Below are positions 849 to 9,229 of a stretch of DNA of 44,937 nucleotides, piece after piece; the first letter of the stretch is position 1; each line of letters begins with the position of its first letter. The stretch spans positions 66,264 through 111,200 of the forward strand of contig PLZO01000034.1 of the NCBI GenBank assembly GCA_003152165.1, written 5' to 3'. Source of the DNA: Chloroflexota bacterium. GTDB taxonomy: Bacteria > Chloroflexota > Limnocylindria > Limnocylindrales > CSP1-4. Below the pieces are notes generated by a model that worked only from the letters and a program-made list of their open reading frames with translations, was not told the origin of the DNA and made no database searches. The position numbers and the translations under genes were made by a program.

Positions 849-2402
849 CTAGGAGATCGCGGCCTCGGGCTCCGACGCGATGTCCGACCTTGCTATGTCA
901 GGCTGGACGGCAGGTCGGCTGTCGACCGCTATTCGATCGAGCACGGCGACGACGCGGCTGAGGCTGGCCGGATCCTCGAGAACTGCCAGCTGGATCGTCG
1001 GCCATCGACTGAGCTGCCAGGATCCAATGTCGACGCCGTCGATCTCGTTCAGCATGAGACGGAGCTCATCTCGTGCTTCGATCGAGTCGAACGGCGGCTG
1101 CTTCATCCCGCCGAACTGGATGACCACGTCGCCTCGGGCTCGCACCGCGATTGTCGGCTGCGAGCCCTTTGGTACGAGCTCGAGATCGACCGGGAACCAG
1201 AGCTGCGGCTCTGTCGTGCAACCGTTCATTGGGAAGCGTGTGAGCGTTTTCGTCCGCACCCCGACGGAACCGGCCAGCTCCCGCTCCTTCTGATCGGCCC
1301 AGTTGATGAGCTTCTCGATCACGTCACGAGCACTAGCGCCGTGGCGACGGCCGATCTCCTCTGCGAACGACTCCTCGTCCCAGGTGTGCGGCGTCCGTTC
1401 CGGCGAAAGAGCGAGGTCGAGGATGAGCGGTAGGTGGTCGGACAGACCACTGCCGACGACCGTTGGATCCACCGTCAACGCGTTTACCTGGTCCGCGAGG
1501 GCGGGCGACACAAACAGGTGGTCGAGCTCAGCCCGACCCCATGTTCCGACGTGGTCGCACGTGGCACCACCACCGCACGGGCAGTCCGAAGGGGCGGCTG
1601 GTCGGTCCTTGACGACGGTCTTCGCCTCGACCAGCCCAAGCGAACGAATCGCGGTCATCACGGCTTCCGCTCGAGCGATCTGCTTCGGATCCTTGGTTGA
1701 ACGGGAGACGTTGAGATCTCCGCCGAGAATGACCCGAGCGCCGTACGGCGAGTCGAATAACGGGACGAGGTCTGCGATGACGCGCAGCATGGTTGAGACG
1801 GCCGAGCCATCCATCACGCCGTACACGCTGACGAGCGTGATCGGTTCGATGTCGCCCACGGTCAGTCGCGCGATCGCCACCGCTCCCGGATGGGTGTTCT
1901 CGAGCAGGTAACGGCGACGCGACCAAGGGATCCGCACCGAGCGGAGCGGCTCGAGCTTGATCGCCGGATCGAGCGCGACGACGGCCGAGCCCCAATTCCT
2001 GTGGCCAGCGAGCTCGCCATAGATCGCCCGGTCCCGCTCAAGATCGAGCGGCGGGACGGCCTCCTGGACCAACGCGACCTGCGCCCCGATCGTGCCGTCG
2101 AGGTATGCCCAAGCAGCGCGCCGAGAGTCGATCGGCAGCAGCGGCTGGCGCCAATGATTTAGGTTCCAGGTGACGAGGCGGAGTGGGACAGCTTTGTCGA
2201 CTGGATCTACGGCCGAATCGACCTCAGTCGAAGCTTCTGTTGCGATGCGATTGCCCCCATTGACGTTGTCGATCTCACGATGGCACGCGCCTGTGACAGG
2301 TCGGGTGTCATAGCTCCTTTTGGAGTCCGGCGCAGCGGACAGACGGACTAGGGGTCCGTGCGGTCGAGTCGTCGGCCGTTCTTGACCTGGAGCAGCGACC
2401 AC
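849..2402 (-). CDS. Endonuclease/exonuclease/phosphatase (EEP) family protein with extra C-terminal domain
   Basis: This is a metal-dependent phosphodiesterase or phosphomonoesterase of the DNase I-like EEP fold. Family motifs appear in order: TWNLNHW (Asn80), VQEA (Glu114), GGDLN (Asp229, Asn231), ELDHLFVS (about 292-299) and SDHLP (Asp322, His323). A Cys-rich insert, CPCGGGATCDH, sits at about 274-284. Residues from about 335 onward form an extra domain I do not recognise, containing an Asp/Gly-rich strand near IQFGGMK. The ATG at 2402 overlaps the upstream gene by 55 bp. I found no better in-frame start before the conserved core, so the first 70 residues are uncertain. It is the last gene of a three-gene overlapping operon with an ADP-ribosylglycohydrolase-phosphatase, so its substrate may be a nucleotide or nucleic-acid phosphodiester; that is inference. 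Confidence 0.85.
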   Translation of the reverse strand: MVAAPGQERPTTRPHGPLVRLSAAPDSKRSYDTRPVTGACHREIDNVNGGNRIATEASTEVDSAVDPVDKAVPLRLVTWNLNHWRQPLLPIDSRRAAWAYLDGTIGAQVALVQEAVPPLDLERDRAIYGELAGHRNWGSAVVALDPAIKLEPLRSVRIPWSRRRYLLENTHPGAVAIARLTVGDIEPITLVSVYGVMDGSAVSTMLRVIADLVPLFDSPYGARVILGGDLNVSRSTKDPKQIARAEAVMTAIRSLGLVEAKTVVKDRPAAPSDCPCGGGATCDHVGTWGRAELDHLFVSPALADQVNALTVDPTVVGSGLSDHLPLILDLALSPERTPHTWDEESFAEEIGRRHGASARDVIEKLINWADQKERELAGSVGVRTKTLTRFPMNGCTTEPQLWFPVDLELVPKGSQPTIAVRARGDVVIQFGGMKQPPFDSIEARDELRLMLNEIDGVDIGSWQLSRWPTIQLAVLEDPASLSRVVAVLDRIAVDSRPAVQPDIARSDIASEPEAAIS

Positions 2403-2782
2403 CGTCCGATCGCTAGGTCTCGGACCCGCTTTTCACGCTCAAACCCGAAGTTCGGGATGGTCTTCTCGGCGCGGACGTACTCGTCGAGGAGCGCCTCGCC
2501 CGCCTCTTGCCATTCACGCCAGCCCAGGGCGTGGACTGTGACGTACGCGGACTCAAACGGCGTGCCCCCGAACTCCGGTGCGGCGTCGAATCCCGCGACG
2601 CGAAGACGGTTGACGATGTCCTCCCAGACGCGAACTCGAAGTCGGTGATAGCCCGCGGCGTCTCTAAGGGCGCCGGCCTCACTCGACCAGTAGCCGCGTG
2701 TGGCGATGCTGGAAAGGATCCCGGCAAGGAGTTCGTCCCACCTTGCAGACGCCTCGGGACTCTCCCTGGGTCGAGCCTTCAT
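2348..2782 (-). CDS. Hypothetical protein (144 aa) inside the ADP-ribosylglycohydrolase operon
   Basis: I do not recognise this protein. The ATG at 2782 overlaps the stop of the upstream gene in an ATGA arrangement, which decides the start; a longer in-frame extension would run antisense-style into the upstream gene. The product is a small, charged, soluble protein rich in Trp, Arg and Glu. Helical stretches around residues 13-55 and 85-125 contain a WREWQEAGEALLDEY segment. There is no signal peptide, membrane segment or Cys motif. It is translationally coupled to the ADP-ribosylglycohydrolase-phosphatase upstream and overlaps the EEP gene downstream, so it probably works with those two enzymes. 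Confidence 0.7.
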   Translation of the reverse strand: MKARPRESPEASARWDELLAGILSSIATRGYWSSEAGALRDAAGYHRLRVRVWEDIVNRLRVAGFDAAPEFGGTPFESAYVTVHALGWREWQEAGEALLDEYVRAEKTIPNFGFEREKRVRDLAIGRWSLLQVKNGRRLDRTDP

Positions 2783-4305
2783 CGATGACCCGCCAAGCCT
2801 TCCCAGCCGAGGACAAACGCATCTTGTGCGCCTGTCTCGATCGTCTTGTGCCGACTGTCCCTTGTGAGCCCGATGGCATCTGGCCCGCCAAGGCCGGCAT
2901 CGCGAAGCAGACATCCCACGACCGTGCCGGTGCGACCAAGCCCACCACGGCATGCGACAACCACGGTCTCACCTGCTTGGAGCCTCTGCTCCACCTTCGC
3001 AAGCAGTCGGGCGAAGGTGTCCCGATCTTTCGGCAGGTCGACATCCCTGATGGGATATCGAATCAGCTCGATTCCATGCTTCTTCATCGACTCGGCGATG
3101 CCGGTCGTCTTTGTCATGGCGAGCTCGTCGTCTTCAACGAGCAGGACGAATGTGTCGACCTTCCAATGCCCCGCCAGGCGTTCGACATCCGTCTCGAGGT
3201 CGCGCCAATGACGCCGTTGCGAGCCTTGATCTTTCTTGCCGGGCAGGAACGTCATGCCGAGGCGGCCGGTCCAGCCGGCCGACGCCGGCACGGCCGCCGG
3301 ATCGACCCAATCGACCCGAATCGGATGCGTTTCGGAGGTTTGACTACCGGCGGGTGCAGTTGACGCTAGAACGGCCTTCTCGCCGACGAGGGCCGCGACA
3401 AGGGGCTGGACAATCTCCTGCCCGCGCAACTTCGAGCGCCATTCGGCCGGGATCTCTTCGACACCCCACCGGATGCCGGCCAGACCACCGGCGATACAGG
3501 CGGTCGCGTCGGTATCGTGGCCGTATCGAATGGCTCGCTCGACCGCCTCGCGATAGCTATGAGTGCCGGCGACCGCGTCCCAGGCTGACCAGAACGAGTC
3601 GATGACGTAACCGCGACCGGACCGCTCGGTCCAGCCTTCGATCGTCCCGAGCGCATTCAGCCAGGCTTCAGCGTCGACGTGCGCCTCGTAGATCGCTCGC
3701 AGCGTCGCCCGTGCCTGCGACAGTGACTGGGCTCGGGGGTGACCCGACAAAAGGTTCCGCGCCAGGAGCACATAGAGCGCGCACGTCGCTTGGGGAACCC
3801 GGTGAGCGTGGGTGACCTTCGACGATCGGTGGGCGTGCTCGACCAGCTCCGCGTCGGGTAGGTCGCGCTCCACGAGGGCGATCGGGAGGATCCGCATAAG
3901 CGAGCCGTTGCCTTGGGCGCCTTCATTCGTCCCGCCCGATGCCTCTGCGGTCGCTCCTGCGCGGAATCGGCTGATGGCGCTCGAAGTCGCGTAGCCGATA
4001 TCGAATAGGCCGTCGCCGTCGGGCGTGTAGGCGCGATCGTCCTTCCAGGCGAGGAACCGCTTGGCCTGGTCGGTCGTGTCGAACCCTGCCTCGCCAACCT
4101 TGCGCTCACGCAGTAGCGAATCGAGCGTCGCGAGCATCAGCGCCCCGTCGTCGCTCCAGGTGCCAGGGGGCTGATTGAGCGAGCCATGGCCTCGCCACTC
4201 GACGCTCGTGATCTGGGATGGATTCTTGAACTCGTACGGGACGCCGAGGGCGTCCCCGACCAGATGGCCCCAGACTGCTCCTCGGAGGCGATCGTTCAAT
4301 TCCAT
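2779..4305 (-). CDS. ADP-ribosylglycohydrolase fused to a CDKN3-like cysteine phosphatase
   Basis: This is a two-enzyme fusion. Residues 1-300 are an ADP-ribosylglycohydrolase (DraG/ARH fold), which removes ADP-ribose from modified targets with a dinuclear metal site. GDALG (17-21), TWSDDGAL (49-56) and HDTDATACIAGG (263-274) are the metal-binding segments. Residues 365-508 are a dual-specificity/tyrosine phosphatase domain: the P-loop CRGGLGRTG (Cys452, Arg458) matches CX5R, and Asp421 or Asp423 in RDVDLP is a plausible general acid. Both active sites look intact. The ATG at 4305 follows a GAGGGGG ribosome-binding sequence. The gene heads a minus-strand operon with the 144-aa protein and the EEP enzyme, and diverges from the interrupted HD gene 57 bp away. 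Removing ADP-ribose and a phosphate from one substrate class is an attractive inference; the actual substrate is unknown. Confidence 0.9.
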   Translation of the reverse strand: MELNDRLRGAVWGHLVGDALGVPYEFKNPSQITSVEWRGHGSLNQPPGTWSDDGALMLATLDSLLRERKVGEAGFDTTDQAKRFLAWKDDRAYTPDGDGLFDIGYATSSAISRFRAGATAEASGGTNEGAQGNGSLMRILPIALVERDLPDAELVEHAHRSSKVTHAHRVPQATCALYVLLARNLLSGHPRAQSLSQARATLRAIYEAHVDAEAWLNALGTIEGWTERSGRGYVIDSFWSAWDAVAGTHSYREAVERAIRYGHDTDATACIAGGLAGIRWGVEEIPAEWRSKLRGQEIVQPLVAALVGEKAVLASTAPAGSQTSETHPIRVDWVDPAAVPASAGWTGRLGMTFLPGKKDQGSQRRHWRDLETDVERLAGHWKVDTFVLLVEDDELAMTKTTGIAESMKKHGIELIRYPIRDVDLPKDRDTFARLLAKVEQRLQAGETVVVACRGGLGRTGTVVGCLLRDAGLGGPDAIGLTRDSRHKTIETGAQDAFVLGWEGLAGHR

Positions 4306-4362: not shown

Positions 4363-4392
4363 ATGGCAAACGGCATCGACGAGGCCGGGTAG
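4363..4392 (+). pseudogene. Severed 5' end of the HD-domain hydrolase gene
   Basis: The ATG at 4363, with GAGG about 12 bases upstream, encodes M-A-N-G-I-D-E-A-G and then hits a TAG inside the inserted element (4390-4392). If the element (4386-5953) and one 12-bp repeat copy are removed, position 4385 joins to 5966. The frame then reads straight through into the HD-domain protein as MANGIDEAGVPLPPEPW. That exact restoration of an open frame, giving a 211-residue protein, is the evidence that this is the original start of the gene now beginning near 5970. Confidence 0.8.
4374..4385 (+). repeat. Target-site duplication, left copy
   Basis: CATCGACGAGGC is identical to 5954-5965. In the HD gene it encodes part of G-I-D-E-A. 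The match extends to 16 bp (4373-4388) if bases shared with the TIR are counted. Confidence 0.85.
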
Positions 4393-4401
4393 TAGATAGA
4401 G
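4386..4401 (+). repeat. Left terminal inverted repeat of the insertion element
   Basis: CGGGTAGTAGATAGAG is a perfect reverse complement of 5938-5953. Pairing stops at the next base inward. Confidence 0.85.
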
Positions 4402-4567
4402 CGTCCGGAAGTTGCCGATCGGCTACGCCTGATCGTCGAACGGTGGGGTGATCGAGTCGAACCGGGCTCCTAGAAGCTCGTGTCCGTTTCAAGCGTCGCT
4501 ATCGGCCGTCCGGATACGCCTCTCGGTACATCCGCTTGCCCGTGCGAGGTCGGTTTGATCGGCGTCT

Positions 4568-5503
4568 TCATTCGCCCGCCTTCGCCTCGGCTGGCTTCAT
4601 CTCCCGGTCCAGTTCGATCGCGGCCCGGGTCACGTCCTGCACCCGGACGTTGGCGACCTCGGCGATCGCCTTCTGCGACAGCACGCCCCGATAGCCGGTG
4701 GACCCGAGCGGCCCTTCGCGCGCCCGGAGTTCGAGCAGCTTCCGGACGACCCGCTCCTTCGGAACATCGCCTGCCATGCCAGCCTCCTTCCTCCTTCCTG
4801 AGACGGACGAGTCAACCAGGTGGCGGTCAAGCTCGGTTCGCCTCCGGGGGGACGGTTTCCCTACGCTGGACGGATACCGCTCTAGCACGAGCCCTAGCTC
4901 CTCGCGCGTAAGGCCACGACGTAGCTGGGACCGACTGACGTTCTCGGCCACCGCGATGAATGCAGCGGCCCGGTGAGGATCCTTGGGGGAAGCGACGATG
5001 GCCGACTTCTTGTTCGTCAGCTCGCACGACGAACACGGCTGGTAGCCACTCGACAGCGCGGCTTCCGTCGGCCACCACCTGCCTCTGTCGTCCTTGTCGT
5101 ACAGGCCGATACCGTCTGGAGCAAACGGTGGGCCGTCCCAGTCCTTGGAGGGCTTGGCCCCCTCATCGGTGCGGCGCAAGCCGGCACCGTCGGGCTGGCC
5201 GCGGTCGATTTCGTATTTGCCGCGCCAGTAACGCAGTCCATCAGGGGCGACCCAGTAGCGATGCGCTGGGTTGTAGCCGCGGAAGTACGCCCTGAAGCTG
5301 TCGGGATTCTTCGCCAGCAGCATGGAGCTGAGGACGTTCCAGGCCCACTCGGGGCCTTTCCCCCAGATCGAGTACTGATGGCGCATCAGCGGACAGAACT
5401 GCGCCTTCCAGGGGAGGGCTTGGATGGCGTCGAGAACGTCGCGCTCGCGCCCGTCTGGGGCTCGCACGGTGCGAGCGTCGACGATGACATAACCGGACGG
5501 CAT
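4568..5503 (-). CDS. Unknown protein of the insertion element, Ada-like Cys motif and C-terminal HTH-like helices
   Basis: This is the only convincing gene inside the 1.57-kb element. The ATG at 5503 is preceded by AAGGAG seven bases upstream, so I prefer it to the ATG 33 bases earlier. The 311-aa protein begins with a compact Trp/Tyr/Arg-rich domain that includes RAYFRGY and LRYWRGKY. The segment GRWWPTEAALSSGYQPCSSC (about residues 143-162) resembles the second half of Ada/MGMT-type zinc sites (A..AGYRPCxRC). The C-terminal 60 residues contain LSQKAIAEVANVRVQDVTRA, which looks like a winged-helix or HTH unit. I see no known transposase or recombinase active site. It may be cargo, a DNA-binding mobilisation protein or a regulator. 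The function is not assigned. Confidence 0.72.
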   Translation of the reverse strand: MPSGYVIVDARTVRAPDGRERDVLDAIQALPWKAQFCPLMRHQYSIWGKGPEWAWNVLSSMLLAKNPDSFRAYFRGYNPAHRYWVAPDGLRYWRGKYEIDRGQPDGAGLRRTDEGAKPSKDWDGPPFAPDGIGLYDKDDRGRWWPTEAALSSGYQPCSSCELTNKKSAIVASPKDPHRAAAFIAVAENVSRSQLRRGLTREELGLVLERYPSSVGKPSPRRRTELDRHLVDSSVSGRRKEAGMAGDVPKERVVRKLLELRAREGPLGSTGYRGVLSQKAIAEVANVRVQDVTRAAIELDREMKPAEAKAGE

Positions 5504-5937
5504 CCTTGGGCTCCTTCGCTGCAGGCTACACGGCACCCGCAGGGTTCGACCTTACCTCCAGCAGGTCAAAAGTACGTCGAGGACCTCCTCTTGAACGCCG
5601 GGAAGAGACTCCATGATCAACCCCTATCAGGCTCCCAGCGACGACTTGAGGGCGTCATCGCGGGACCTTGGACCGAAGAGTCCTTCACCTTCAGCGGTCT
5701 GTCCTCAGGGACGTGACGGCGGCGAACGACGTCGTGTTCCACAGTTGTCTCCATCGAACCTCAGCAGGAGCACCGCGGTCGGACGACTACGTTGCTGCGG
5801 CGTCATCGGGCTGGGTCCCTCGACGGCTCAGGATGGACCAAGCGAGCATAGCGGATCCTGCGCCGCGGAGCGCACGGTTGCCTGCCTGACTCCGCCCGCC
5901 GGGAATCGCCGCGGCCTTCGGCGGCAACTTCACCGCC
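5504..5937. other. Non-coding right part of the insertion element
   Basis: About 430 bp lie between the element's gene and its right terminal repeat. Open frames here translate to Arg/Ser-rich low-complexity sequence and look spurious. On the minus strand, TATGCT around 5850 could be a -10 box for the element's gene, and GGACTCTTCGGTCC (5669-5682 region) can form a short hairpin. Neither is strong. Element-specific end structures or an RNA could lie here. Confidence 0.3.
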
Positions 5938-5953
5938 CTCTATCTACTACCCG
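5938..5953 (-). repeat. Right terminal inverted repeat of the insertion element
   Basis: CTCTATCTACTACCCG on the plus strand is the perfect inverted partner of 4386-4401. Confidence 0.85.
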
Positions 5954-5965
5954 CATCGACGAGGC
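5954..5965 (+). repeat. Target-site duplication, right copy
   Basis: CATCGACGAGGC is identical to 4374-4385 and directly outside the right terminal inverted repeat. Confidence 0.85.
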
Positions 5966-5969
5966 CGGC

Positions 5970-6578
5970 GTGCCACTTCCGCCGGAACCTTGGGTCTACG
6001 CAGACCAGTTGATTCGGGCGATGGCCGTCGCTGCGCAGATCCACGCCGCCCAGGTCCGAAAGGACACGACGATTCCGTATCTGAGCCATCTCCTCGGGGC
6101 CTGCTCGATCGCGATGGAATACGGCGCGACCGAGGACGAGGCGATCGCCGCCTTGCTCCACGACGCAATCGAGGACGGCGAGCCGGTCGAGGCTGCTCGG
6201 GCGACCGTCAGGAGCGTCGGCCCGGACGTCGGCCGGATCGTCGAAGGTTGTACCGACTCAGACACCCACCAGAAGCCCCCGTGGCGTCCGCGCAAAGTGG
6301 CCTACCTGGCCCGCCTCGCGTCAGAGGATCGCTCAGTCTTGCTCGTTTCGGCGTCAGACAAGCCCCACAACGCCCGTTCGATCGTCCGTGACCTTCGCGA
6401 CGTCGGCGCTGCTGTCTGGGATCGCTTCAGCCTGCCGAAGGAAGACTCGCTGATGTCTTACCGAACGCTGGTTGCGACGTACCAAAAGAGCCCGAATCGC
6501 AATCCGGCCCTAATCGATGAACTTGACCGGACCGTCACCGAGATGGAGGCGCTTGCGAGGTCGGTCGTCAAGCGGTAG
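5970..6578 (+). CDS. RelA/SpoT (MESH1)-type HD-domain hydrolase, 5' end displaced by the insertion
   Basis: The protein matches small (p)ppGpp hydrolase-type HD proteins. It has YLSHLLGAC (the HP-like helix), AALLHDAIEDG (the HD metal site) and VSASDKPHN, which corresponds to the (A)D(K/R)LHN motif of the RelA/SpoT family. The conserved metal-binding His and Asp residues appear intact. It likely removes the 3' pyrophosphate or phosphate from a nucleotide. The native start was the ATG at 4363; the element now separates it by 1.57 kb. A GTG at 5970, five bases after a GAGG, could still start a 202-residue version missing only the first nine residues, so the enzyme may remain functional. Promoter supply would then have to come from the element or readthrough. 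Originally the gene diverged from the ADP-ribosylglycohydrolase operon. Confidence 0.82.
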   Translation: MPLPPEPWVYADQLIRAMAVAAQIHAAQVRKDTTIPYLSHLLGACSIAMEYGATEDEAIAALLHDAIEDGEPVEAARATVRSVGPDVGRIVEGCTDSDTHQKPPWRPRKVAYLARLASEDRSVLLVSASDKPHNARSIVRDLRDVGAAVWDRFSLPKEDSLMSYRTLVATYQKSPNRNPALIDELDRTVTEMEALARSVVKR

Positions 6579-6595: not shown

Positions 6596-7363
6596 TCAGA
6601 TTCCGATCCAATCGCGCCACGGTTCACAGACTCGATCCCAAACGTCGCGCGCACTCCAGGCGGCACCAGAGTCTCGGGTGAGTCCGAATCTCAAGCCGAT
6701 AACGAGTTCGACCCACACAAACTCTTCATCTCGGATCGAAGGCAAGGCTGCCGCAATCTCGGCGAACGACGTCGCCTTAGCGAGATGATCCAGCCGACCC
6801 TGTCGACGCGTACCTTGGATCGGCGTCAGCTGTCCGGCCTGGCAGACGAACCGAGCTACATCGGCGTCGCTGTCCTGTGATCCGTGGTCCGCATGCTCCT
6901 TGTCGGACAGCTGAAGGCCGGCGATCAAGGCGACCGTGAGTGGTCGACCGGCAACGGATTCGGCGGTCGCTGCCTGATCCTCGAAGCGACCCGTGCGAAA
7001 TGCGCGAACCAGTTCGTGCCAGCGCCACGTTGCGTCCATGACCATTGCCTCGCGATGATCGATGGCGAACGTAGTCGCGGCGACCTCGCCGTGCACACCC
7101 TTCTCGATATCAAGCCCGATCAAACGGTCGCTCGGTTCGACGACGAAGTGGTCTTTCATCACGATGATCTTGCCGAAGCGATAGGCCGGCCTCTCATTCG
7201 AGTTGAGGAGCCACCACGCCGAGTTGTCCGGGTCGAAGCGGTTGAACGGGAGCGCGTACAGCTGCTCCTGGGTCGCTTTCTTGGCAGCCTCCCTGAGTTC
7301 GACGGCCGTTTCCGATATCGGGGACTCGGCCAAGCTTGGGAACGCTGTATCTGTGAGATTCAT
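6596..7363 (-). CDS. Hypothetical protein (255 aa)
   Basis: I do not recognise this protein. The ATG at 7363 has an AGGGGG just upstream and starts MNLTDTAFPSL; the longer frame to 7486 would run into the start region of the divergent helicase gene. The product is soluble, with a central beta-rich part (KIIVMKDHFVVEP, then DRLIGLDIEKGVHGEVAATTF) and a helical C-terminal half containing several Trp and Asp/Glu clusters. It has no signal peptide and no metal motif. It is convergent with the HD gene and divergent from the NERD-helicase, from which it is separated by 129 bp that probably hold both promoters. Confidence 0.65.
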   Translation of the reverse strand: MNLTDTAFPSLAESPISETAVELREAAKKATQEQLYALPFNRFDPDNSAWWLLNSNERPAYRFGKIIVMKDHFVVEPSDRLIGLDIEKGVHGEVAATTFAIDHREAMVMDATWRWHELVRAFRTGRFEDQAATAESVAGRPLTVALIAGLQLSDKEHADHGSQDSDADVARFVCQAGQLTPIQGTRRQGRLDHLAKATSFAEIAAALPSIRDEEFVWVELVIGLRFGLTRDSGAAWSARDVWDRVCEPWRDWIGI

Positions 7364-7492: not shown

Positions 7493-9229
7493 ATGGCAGA
7501 GGGGGCATCAATCGAGACTCCTGGCGCGATCGCAGAGCAACTTGTCGTCCAGCGACTGCGCGCCGTCCTGCCGCCGAGCGTGGCAGTTCTCGCGAACCTC
7601 AGCTGGATCCTTCGCGAGCACGGCTACGTGCGCGAAGGCGAGGCCGACGTGGTCATCGGAGATCCGGACCACGGGATCATGGTGATCGAGGTCAAGGCTG
7701 GTCAGATCCGCCGCGATGCGACCGGGACCTGGTGGGCGGGCCCAAGGCGCCTGCCGCGCAGCCCTTTCAAACAGGCCTCGGACAGCCGGCACTCGCTGGT
7801 TGACAAGCTGTGCGAACTCCCCGGGTGGCCTGCTCGGCTTAAGCCGATTGCCGGCCAAGCGGTGGCATTTCCCCATGTCGAGCTCGACTCGATGCGCGGA
7901 CGGCTTGGCCTCCTCGGTCCCGAAGTGGACCCCGACCTCATCGCCGACCAGTCGATGTTCATGGAAACGGACGCCAGTCGCGCCGAGCTGACTGCCTTCA
8001 TCGATCGAGCGTTCGCGTCGTGGAGCGGGTCGTCCGACACGCGACCGCCGGGCAAGGCCGGGATCGACGCCCTTGTCGCGATGACCAGCGAGCCATTCGA
8101 GATCACGCCGATGCTCCGTAACGAGATTGCGGAGGGCGAGTCGAAGGTCATCAAGCTGACCGCAGAGCAGTTCAGCCTCCTGAACACGCTCCGGAGCATC
8201 CGCCGGGCCTCGATCGTCGGCGGCGCGGGCACCGGCAAGACGCTGATCGCTGCCGAGAAGGCGCGCCGGCTCGCCCGCGAGGGCTTTCGGACGCTGCTCG
8301 TCTGCTTCAACTCGCCACTCGCCGGGATGCTTGCTCAGGAGGTCGCGAAGACGGTCGACGAGACCGGCCTGCTCGAGGTCAAGACGTTCCACCAGCTCTG
8401 CGAGGACCTCGGCCGCGAGGCTGGCGTCCTGGGTCCGCGGCCAACACCGGTTCGCCAGCCGTGGTTCGACATCACGCTCCCGCGCGCCCTCGATGACGCG
8501 ATCGCGAAGCTCGGCCCGCGCTACCACTCGATCGTGGTCGACGAGGGCCAGGACTTCGATGCGGGCTGGCTTCTTTCGCTCGAGGGTCTGCTGTTCGGCG
8601 GCCGCGAGGACGTCCTGTACATCTTCCACGACCCCGCCCAGGCGCTCTTCCGGGAGGACGCGGTCGGCGGACTCGGGATGGACGAGTACCCGCTCGCGAT
8701 GAACTGCCGGAACGCGCAGCCGATCCACGCGCTCATCCAGCGCTTCGCGGGGGAGGGGCTGTCGGCCGAGGCCCTCCGCCAGGATGGCCGCCGACCGGAG
8801 CTGATCGAAGCGGACGGGCCGCAGGCGACGATCAAGGCGCTGCGGACGGTGCTTCATCGGCTGCGTGTCGACGAGGGCGTCAAGCCCTGGGACATCGCCG
8901 TGCTGACTGGTGCCCGGCTCGAGGATTCGCCCGTCTGGCACGTGCCCGGCCGCCAGCTCGGCAACGAAGTCCTGGGCAATCCCGCGGTTGATGACGCAGG
9001 TCGGAGTCTCGGCGCGCCGGCCCAGGACGTCCCGGAGCTCCCGAGCGACGTGATCCTGTGCGACACGATCCGCCGGTTCAAGGGTCTCGAGCGGCCGGTG
9101 ATCATCCTCGTCGAGCTCAGCACGAACGACGCAGAGATGCTCGATCGGCTGCTCTACGTCGGGGGTTCGAGGGCCCGGCAGTACCTAGTCGTCATAGGTT
9201 CAGCTGGGGTAATTGCCCGGCTGCGCTAA
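7493..9229 (+). CDS. NERD-domain UvrD-like superfamily I helicase
   Basis: This 578-aa protein pairs a nuclease-related domain with a helicase. Residues about 10-150 are NERD: EADVVIGDPDHGIMVIEVKAG carries the D...ExK pattern of the nuclease-like fold. The helicase core has Walker A GGAGTGKT (about 243-250), Walker B VDEGQDF (about 349-355), the motif IV-like NCRNAQPIH, and C-terminal motifs in TIRRFKGLERPVII and LYVGGSRARQYLVV. The ATG at 7493 (MAEGAS) is the natural start just before the NERD core; the frame is open for 600 bases upstream, but that part is antisense to the divergent gene. NERD-helicases are common in phage-defence neighbourhoods, and this one sits beside HEPN and decayed helicase genes. 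A defence role is inference. Confidence 0.88.
   Translation: MAEGASIETPGAIAEQLVVQRLRAVLPPSVAVLANLSWILREHGYVREGEADVVIGDPDHGIMVIEVKAGQIRRDATGTWWAGPRRLPRSPFKQASDSRHSLVDKLCELPGWPARLKPIAGQAVAFPHVELDSMRGRLGLLGPEVDPDLIADQSMFMETDASRAELTAFIDRAFASWSGSSDTRPPGKAGIDALVAMTSEPFEITPMLRNEIAEGESKVIKLTAEQFSLLNTLRSIRRASIVGGAGTGKTLIAAEKARRLAREGFRTLLVCFNSPLAGMLAQEVAKTVDETGLLEVKTFHQLCEDLGREAGVLGPRPTPVRQPWFDITLPRALDDAIAKLGPRYHSIVVDEGQDFDAGWLLSLEGLLFGGREDVLYIFHDPAQALFREDAVGGLGMDEYPLAMNCRNAQPIHALIQRFAGEGLSAEALRQDGRRPELIEADGPQATIKALRTVLHRLRVDEGVKPWDIAVLTGARLEDSPVWHVPGRQLGNEVLGNPAVDDAGRSLGAPAQDVPELPSDVILCDTIRRFKGLERPVIILVELSTNDAEMLDRLLYVGGSRARQYLVVIGSAGVIARLR

Follow-up and report, generated by a model that had tools for sequence, protein, structure and literature searches.

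An ADP-ribosylglycohydrolase–phosphatase fusion gene in a Chloroflexota defense island, with a mobile element inside its alarmone-hydrolase-type neighbor

Introduction

Systems centered on an ADP-ribosylglycohydrolase (ARG, or ARH) were described by Iyer et al. (2022; PMC9503650, section 3.8) as joining this enzyme to a fused or adjacent rhodanese-phosphatase, an optional alarmone-type HD phosphatase, Nudix or WYL regulators, and nucleases. That section proposes, as a prediction rather than from experiment, that these systems undo viral ADP-ribosylation; the same source finds the phosphatase fused or adjacent in slightly more than 55% of cases and a Nudix or WYL transcription factor, which is not obligatory, in over 42%. 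Here we analyze a locus that shares several of these features, located in a 44,937-nt stretch (the window, within which positions are numbered) of contig PLZO01000034.1 from the Chloroflexota assembly GCA_003152165.1. Its central gene encodes a 508-aa fusion of an ARG to a dual-specificity phosphatase (DSP), followed on the same strand by a gene for a 144-aa protein and an EEP-fold nuclease gene, and flanked on the other side by a divergent HD gene of the small-alarmone-hydrolase type. From the sequence we lean toward reading the locus as a variant of the ARG-centered systems, that is, a defense-island operon that would undo invader-made ADP-ribosylation.

A first-pass annotation of the window had called these genes an undescribed module. 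That label does not hold, since systems of ARG, rhodanese-phosphatase, HD, and nuclease were already predicted in section 3.8. What is new here is the element inside the HD gene, the third, HNH domain of relatives in Hma/DUF499 operons, and the defense-island setting.

Results

Two intact active sites in one chain

Both domains of the fusion were recovered by Pfam and by full-length homologs (Table 1). Every metal-site residue listed for the ARH domain is invariant in the 16 aligned homologs, as are C452, R458, and D421 of the phosphatase, in agreement with the earlier claim that two intact active sites reside in one chain. Full-length fusion homologs are 46%–61% identical to the window protein, and the solved structures nearest the DSP domain by sequence are 5z59 (a protein-tyrosine phosphatase) and 1fpz (CDKN3). 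The Tri1-type immunity ADP-ribosylarginine hydrolase and DraG share the ARH fold and metal site (NF041672, 8.6e-35; TIGR02662, 6.3e-26), but the window protein scores far under the equivalog cut-offs (120 vs. 490 and 91 vs. 337 bits, respectively), and no Tre1 toxin or DraT partner is seen beside it.

The distribution of the fusion is patchy. ARG relatives were found in 25 of the 107 family genomes and in none of three genomes from the same genus, and at an E-value of 1e-10 there were matches in 124 of 400 phylum genomes, mostly via one domain. Related records are from Chloroflexota, with full-length fusions also in one Myxococcales and one Verrucomicrobiaceae metagenome-assembled genome (MAG). 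The full fusion was not found in phages or plasmids, where matches comprised the ARG domain alone. The genome samples compared here are capped in number and phylogenetically related, and the lack of a homolog always means none within the collections searched.

Genes downstream from the fusion

The fusion stop and the 144-aa gene start overlap as ATGA. Domain and family scans assigned the 144-aa protein to no family, and no convincing homologs were found in 60 relatives, 400 phylum genomes, plasmids, phages, or viral contigs; the search of the 400 phylum genomes returned weak, short matches alone (best per-genome E 8e-4). Its predicted structure (pLDDT 44) was uninformative.

Pfam matches the third gene weakly (PF03372, E 2.6e-4, under the curated cut-off), and the AlphaFold model of its product (mean pLDDT 74) matches the DNA-cutting enzymes TRAS1/LINE-1 endonuclease, AP endonuclease, and TDP2 (Foldseek, best E 7e-11). 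Like the EEP superfamily (DNase I/AP endonuclease/TDP2-like), it combines the fold with catalytic Asn, Glu, Asp, and Asp-His residues; W12–N13, E47, D162, N164, D227, D255, and H256 are invariant across five homologs, which also have in common with it a CxC...CxH insertion and a C-terminal domain. That domain may be a separate module, because it also occurs as a short stand-alone gene (L125:9441-9698), near a homolog of the NERD-UvrD helicase of the window. No EEP homologs were found in plasmids and viral contigs.

The first-pass annotation had the fusion overlapping the next two genes. The overlap with the 144-aa gene stands, while that between the EEP and 144-aa genes is probable: GTG 2402 is the sole ATG/GTG/TTG ahead of the catalytic WN motif, which makes it likely, yet the first ∼70 aa of the protein are without counterpart in the homologs, which leaves it unproven.

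The HD gene and its inserted element

The HD protein (∼200 aa) consists of the hydrolase domain alone, without a synthetase domain. Its profile matches include 7qoe (3.9e-65) and the MESH1 and RelA structures, and H26, R31–K32, H41, H65–D66, E69–D70, D131, and N135 are invariant in 11 homologs. Small alarmone hydrolases (MESH1/SAH) have (p)ppGpp, (p)ppApp, and NADPH as substrates, and they can double as antitoxins (PMC9765508). The window protein resembles them in its HD_4 domain, its invariant HD/ED and catalytic residues, and its matches to solved structures, and differs in that no alarmone synthetase toxin was recognized beside the gene and in that the gene start has been displaced. Conservation of the active site holds for the fusion, the EEP protein, and the HD protein alike, and the first-pass picture of four hydrolase-type genes, their catalytic residues intact, with an ADP-ribose/alarmone theme is borne out.

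The displacement is due to an element of 1564 bp, recognized by its terminal inverted repeats and an exact 16-bp direct repeat (Table 1); its boundaries are taken from the assembled sequence of a fragmented MAG. The original start of the HD gene is ATG 4363, and the body of the gene resumes at 5953. Read across the empty site, the N-terminus becomes MANGIDEAGVPLPPEPW and resembles those of homologs (e.g., MPNSIDERGWPLPPQPW in L127), which places the insertion after about nine HD codons. Before it, ∼57 bp separated the divergent starts of the HD gene and the fusion. The insertion spared the catalytic domain and put 1.6 kb between it and the native start region. The usable start is now probably GTG 5970 or ATG 6021. 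Initiation within the gene may still yield an HD enzyme, as the first dozen residues are missing from several homologs. The element having split the gene from its start, HD may also have become poorly expressed or inactive. The divergent (p)ppGpp-hydrolase-type gene of the first-pass annotation is confirmed in its domain and residues, but its start is no longer clean.

No transposase was recognizable in the one gene of the element, whose 311-aa product has an HTH_Crp_2 match below the cut-off (0.0026) and one partial homolog in the 107 family genomes. The element end sequence has five copies in the source genome and a single copy in each of two genomes out of 110 others, while a reversed control pattern has none in the same genomes. 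Related ends in the source genome include C150:31781, C158:2855, and C86:8186. On C86, the ends at 8186 and 18802 border 16-bp flanks identical at 15 of 16 positions, which supports a target duplication of this length. The 10.6 kb between these two ends (L269:8186-18802) hold HsdM/HsdR-like restriction genes, as read by eye, and are possibly a larger, defense-carrying relative of the element.

Two candidate control features were discarded. The sequence CTCTATCTACTACCC, upstream of both the fusion and the HD gene, might be taken for a common operator or shared promoter; we dropped this reading given the terminal inverted repeat, whose end it is, the 16-bp target duplication, and the related ends elsewhere in the genome. 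The 311-aa gene as a missing regulator was rejected as well, its helix-turn-helix match being weak and the gene being part of the inserted element.

A defense island, and the company kept by relatives

The fusion module is situated in a defense island: upstream of the window, the same contig carries a ZacABC set (E 2e-109, 4e-142, 0) with BrxD-like genes, and downstream comes the NERD-UvrD helicase gene. This upholds the defense setting suggested at first pass. Beyond the ZacABC set, a gene at L053:15835-19365 partially matches Mokosh models. An HD homolog elsewhere (L130:9257-12359) lies near a homolog of the window helicase (58% identity), an arrangement like that in the window. Neither an ADP-ribosyltransferase nor a sirtuin was recognized by Pfam/NCBIfam among the eight nearest window genes, which include unidentified neighbors.

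Among relatives, an NrtR regulator (Nudix + NrtR_WHD) adjoins the ARG in 10 of the 25 family genomes that have one, and also in Planctomycetota, Verrucomicrobiota, Bacteroidota, and Streptococcus loci. In G339 and G432, which have the two closest fusions (59%–61% identity), the protein continues into a third, HNH domain (PF01844, 2.3e-4) and its gene stands beside genes of the Hma system (PADLOC, PMC8565338), also named DUF499-centered BREX-related systems (PMC12839542). In G432 the fusion is followed, with a 4-nt overlap, by HmaB and then HmaC; in G339 HmaA comes before the fusion, and after it a gene similar to the HmaC of G432. HmaA, HmaB, and HmaC were not found among the genes scanned in the window or at L053.

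Pairs of the window genes recur elsewhere. In G394 the HD gene lies divergently upstream of an NrtR-fusion pair, and in G374 and G437, two genomes of one genus, EEP and HD genes are convergent neighbors overlapping by 4 nt. Other HD relatives sit among restriction, toxin–antitoxin, and helicase genes. ARG is present in 10 of 19 genomes with HD versus 25 of 107 overall (107 family genomes; hypergeometric P = 0.002), an association we regard as weak because the genomes are related. Co-occurrence of the four genes beyond the locus, which the first-pass annotation had named as a check, was not seen: none of the 108 wider loci contains EEP, the 144-aa gene, or HD, and the 144-aa gene is an orphan.

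Table 1. Features of the locus and of related loci; positions refer to the window unless a locus is named
Feature	Position	Strand	Basis or remark
ARG/ARH–DSP fusion, 508 aa	2779..4305	-	Pfam; full-length homologs
ARG/ARH domain, aa 9-288	3442..4281	-	Pfam ADP_ribosyl_GH 1.2e-64
ARH metal site: S51-D52-D53, H166, D264-T265-D266	4147-4155 (S51-D52-D53); 3508-3516 (D264-T265-D266)	-	
DSP/PTP domain (rhodanese-phosphatase superfamily), aa 371-498	2812..3195	-	Pfam PTP-SAK 1.3e-11
Phosphatase CX5R, C452xxxxxR458; acid candidate D421	2932-2952 (CX5R)	-	
144-aa orphan protein (u144)	2348..2782	-	start ATG 2782 within fusion stop
EEP-fold nuclease/phosphodiesterase	849..2402	-	weak Pfam match, model matches, invariant residues
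Displaced 5' end of HD gene	4363..4388	+	sequence; resembles homolog N-termini
HD gene body	5953..6578	+	HD_4 1.9e-17; profile matches to solved hydrolases
Inserted element, 1564 bp, inside HD gene	4389..5952	.	terminal inverted repeats; exact 16-bp direct repeat
Left terminal inverted repeat, 32 nt	4386..4417	-	84% complementary to right
Right terminal inverted repeat, 32 nt	5922..5953	+	
Target-site duplication, left copy GCATCGACGAGGCCGG	4373..4388	+	exact 16-bp direct repeat
Target-site duplication, right copy	5953..5968	+	exact 16-bp direct repeat
Element-borne gene, 311 aa, putative passenger or mobility protein	4568..5503	-	weak C-terminal HTH match
255-aa gene between HD gene and helicase	6596-7363	-	without family match
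NERD-UvrD helicase, neighboring defense gene	7493..9229	+	NERD and UvrD domains; PADLOC RTasNERD-Hel 8e-50
Complete ZacABC set adjoining BrxD-like genes	L053:6686-13141		upstream of window
ARG-phosphatase-HNH proteins	L033:9243-11684, L139:9875-12307		beside Hma/DUF499 genes; L139 HmaB overlaps 4 nt

Discussion

Set against the ARG systems of section 3.8 (PMC9503650), the locus agrees in its intact ARG with a CX5R phosphatase in the same chain, in an alarmone-type HD partner that is divergent here as in G394, in its nuclease and helicase accessories, in that no coupled ADP-ribosyltransferase or sirtuin was recognized among the eight nearest window genes, as the published model expects, and in the NrtR genes beside relatives of the fusion. 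It differs in lacking a Nudix/WYL regulator or recognizable chaperone, and its EEP nuclease and 144-aa orphan are not among the components named in that section.

We infer the enzymatic steps and the phage-defense role of the locus as follows. The ARH domain, with its two-metal site, would cut ADP-ribose off host proteins or nucleic acids that carry it, and the fused DSP domain would act through C452 to dephosphorylate either the ADP-ribose product set free or the target itself. Before the insertion, the HD gene was transcribed divergently from the intergenic region that it shared with the fusion; its product might hydrolyze a related nucleotide phosphorylated at the 2' or 3' position, for example (p)ppApp, (p)ppGpp, or NADPH. 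The EEP protein could be a nuclease effector or else a repair enzyme, filling the place that HNH and restriction enzymes would have in relatives, with the 144-aa protein as a putative variable accessory; a mobile element later separated the HD gene from its start. A more specific proposal, which we put forward as speculative and rather doubtful, is a three-part "strip, trim and cut" defense unit, in which removal of ADP-ribose by ARG-DSP is coupled to alarmone/NADPH hydrolysis by HD and to a locus-variable nuclease (EEP here, a fused HNH domain next to Hma genes in the nearest relatives).

Several observations weigh against the locus being a variant ARG system. No Nudix/NrtR or WYL regulator adjoins the window fusion, the ARH substrate class (Arg, Ser, acid, or nucleic acid) is not readable from sequence, and the complete four-gene set occurs at the window locus only, with pairs alone recurring elsewhere. 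This uniqueness, together with the absence of EEP and the 144-aa gene from every other ARG locus examined, the many different restriction, toxin–antitoxin, and helicase genes that HD genes adjoin, and the mobile element inserted at this very locus, would fit a history of shuffling, in which the fusion is a genuine ARG-system gene and the EEP, 144-aa, and HD genes are independent defense or selfish genes that landed in a hotspot. We consider such a history the less probable account, though one with a real chance of being right: the fusion and the 144-aa gene overlap as ATGA in a same-strand order, the divergence of HD and fusion recurs in G394, and the EEP-HD pairing of G374 and G437 would be rare by chance in ∼3-Mb genomes, even if both belong to one genus.

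Also at odds with a defense role is the location of ARG among apparently ordinary metabolic genes in several relatives (e.g., G219, G320, G292, and G179), which makes a housekeeping role possible for some ARG copies. Extended to the window locus, this would mean that the fusion and the HD enzyme have no part in conflict and serve to recycle derivatives of NAD(P) and ADP-ribose (ADP-ribose phosphates, NADPH), the NrtR genes reflecting NAD homeostasis. The NrtR regulators beside many homologs, the non-defense contexts of some ARG copies, and NADPH as a possible substrate of small alarmone hydrolases (PMC9765508) are in keeping with it, whereas the scattered occurrence of the ARG (in 25 of 107 family genomes and in none of three from the same genus), the placement in defense islands and beside Hma genes, and the joining of the fusion to an HNH nuclease domain in relatives make it improbable for this locus.

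Returning to the reading that we favor, of an ARG-system variant, phages encode ADP-ribosyltransferases, and we found in the literature no experimental test of the predicted host system that reverses phage ADP-ribosylation; the window locus and its relatives offer compact test constructs. In these loci the ARG-phosphatase fusion is connected with nucleases of more than one form (an EEP operon here; in relatives, an HNH domain joined to the fusion next to Hma genes) and, in two genera, with a small alarmone hydrolase. Were the "strip, trim and cut" arrangement true, erasure of ADP-ribosylation would be one arm of a restriction-type system. If the fusion does protect against phage ADP-ribosylation, the erasure of modifications would join cutting and killing as a defense strategy.

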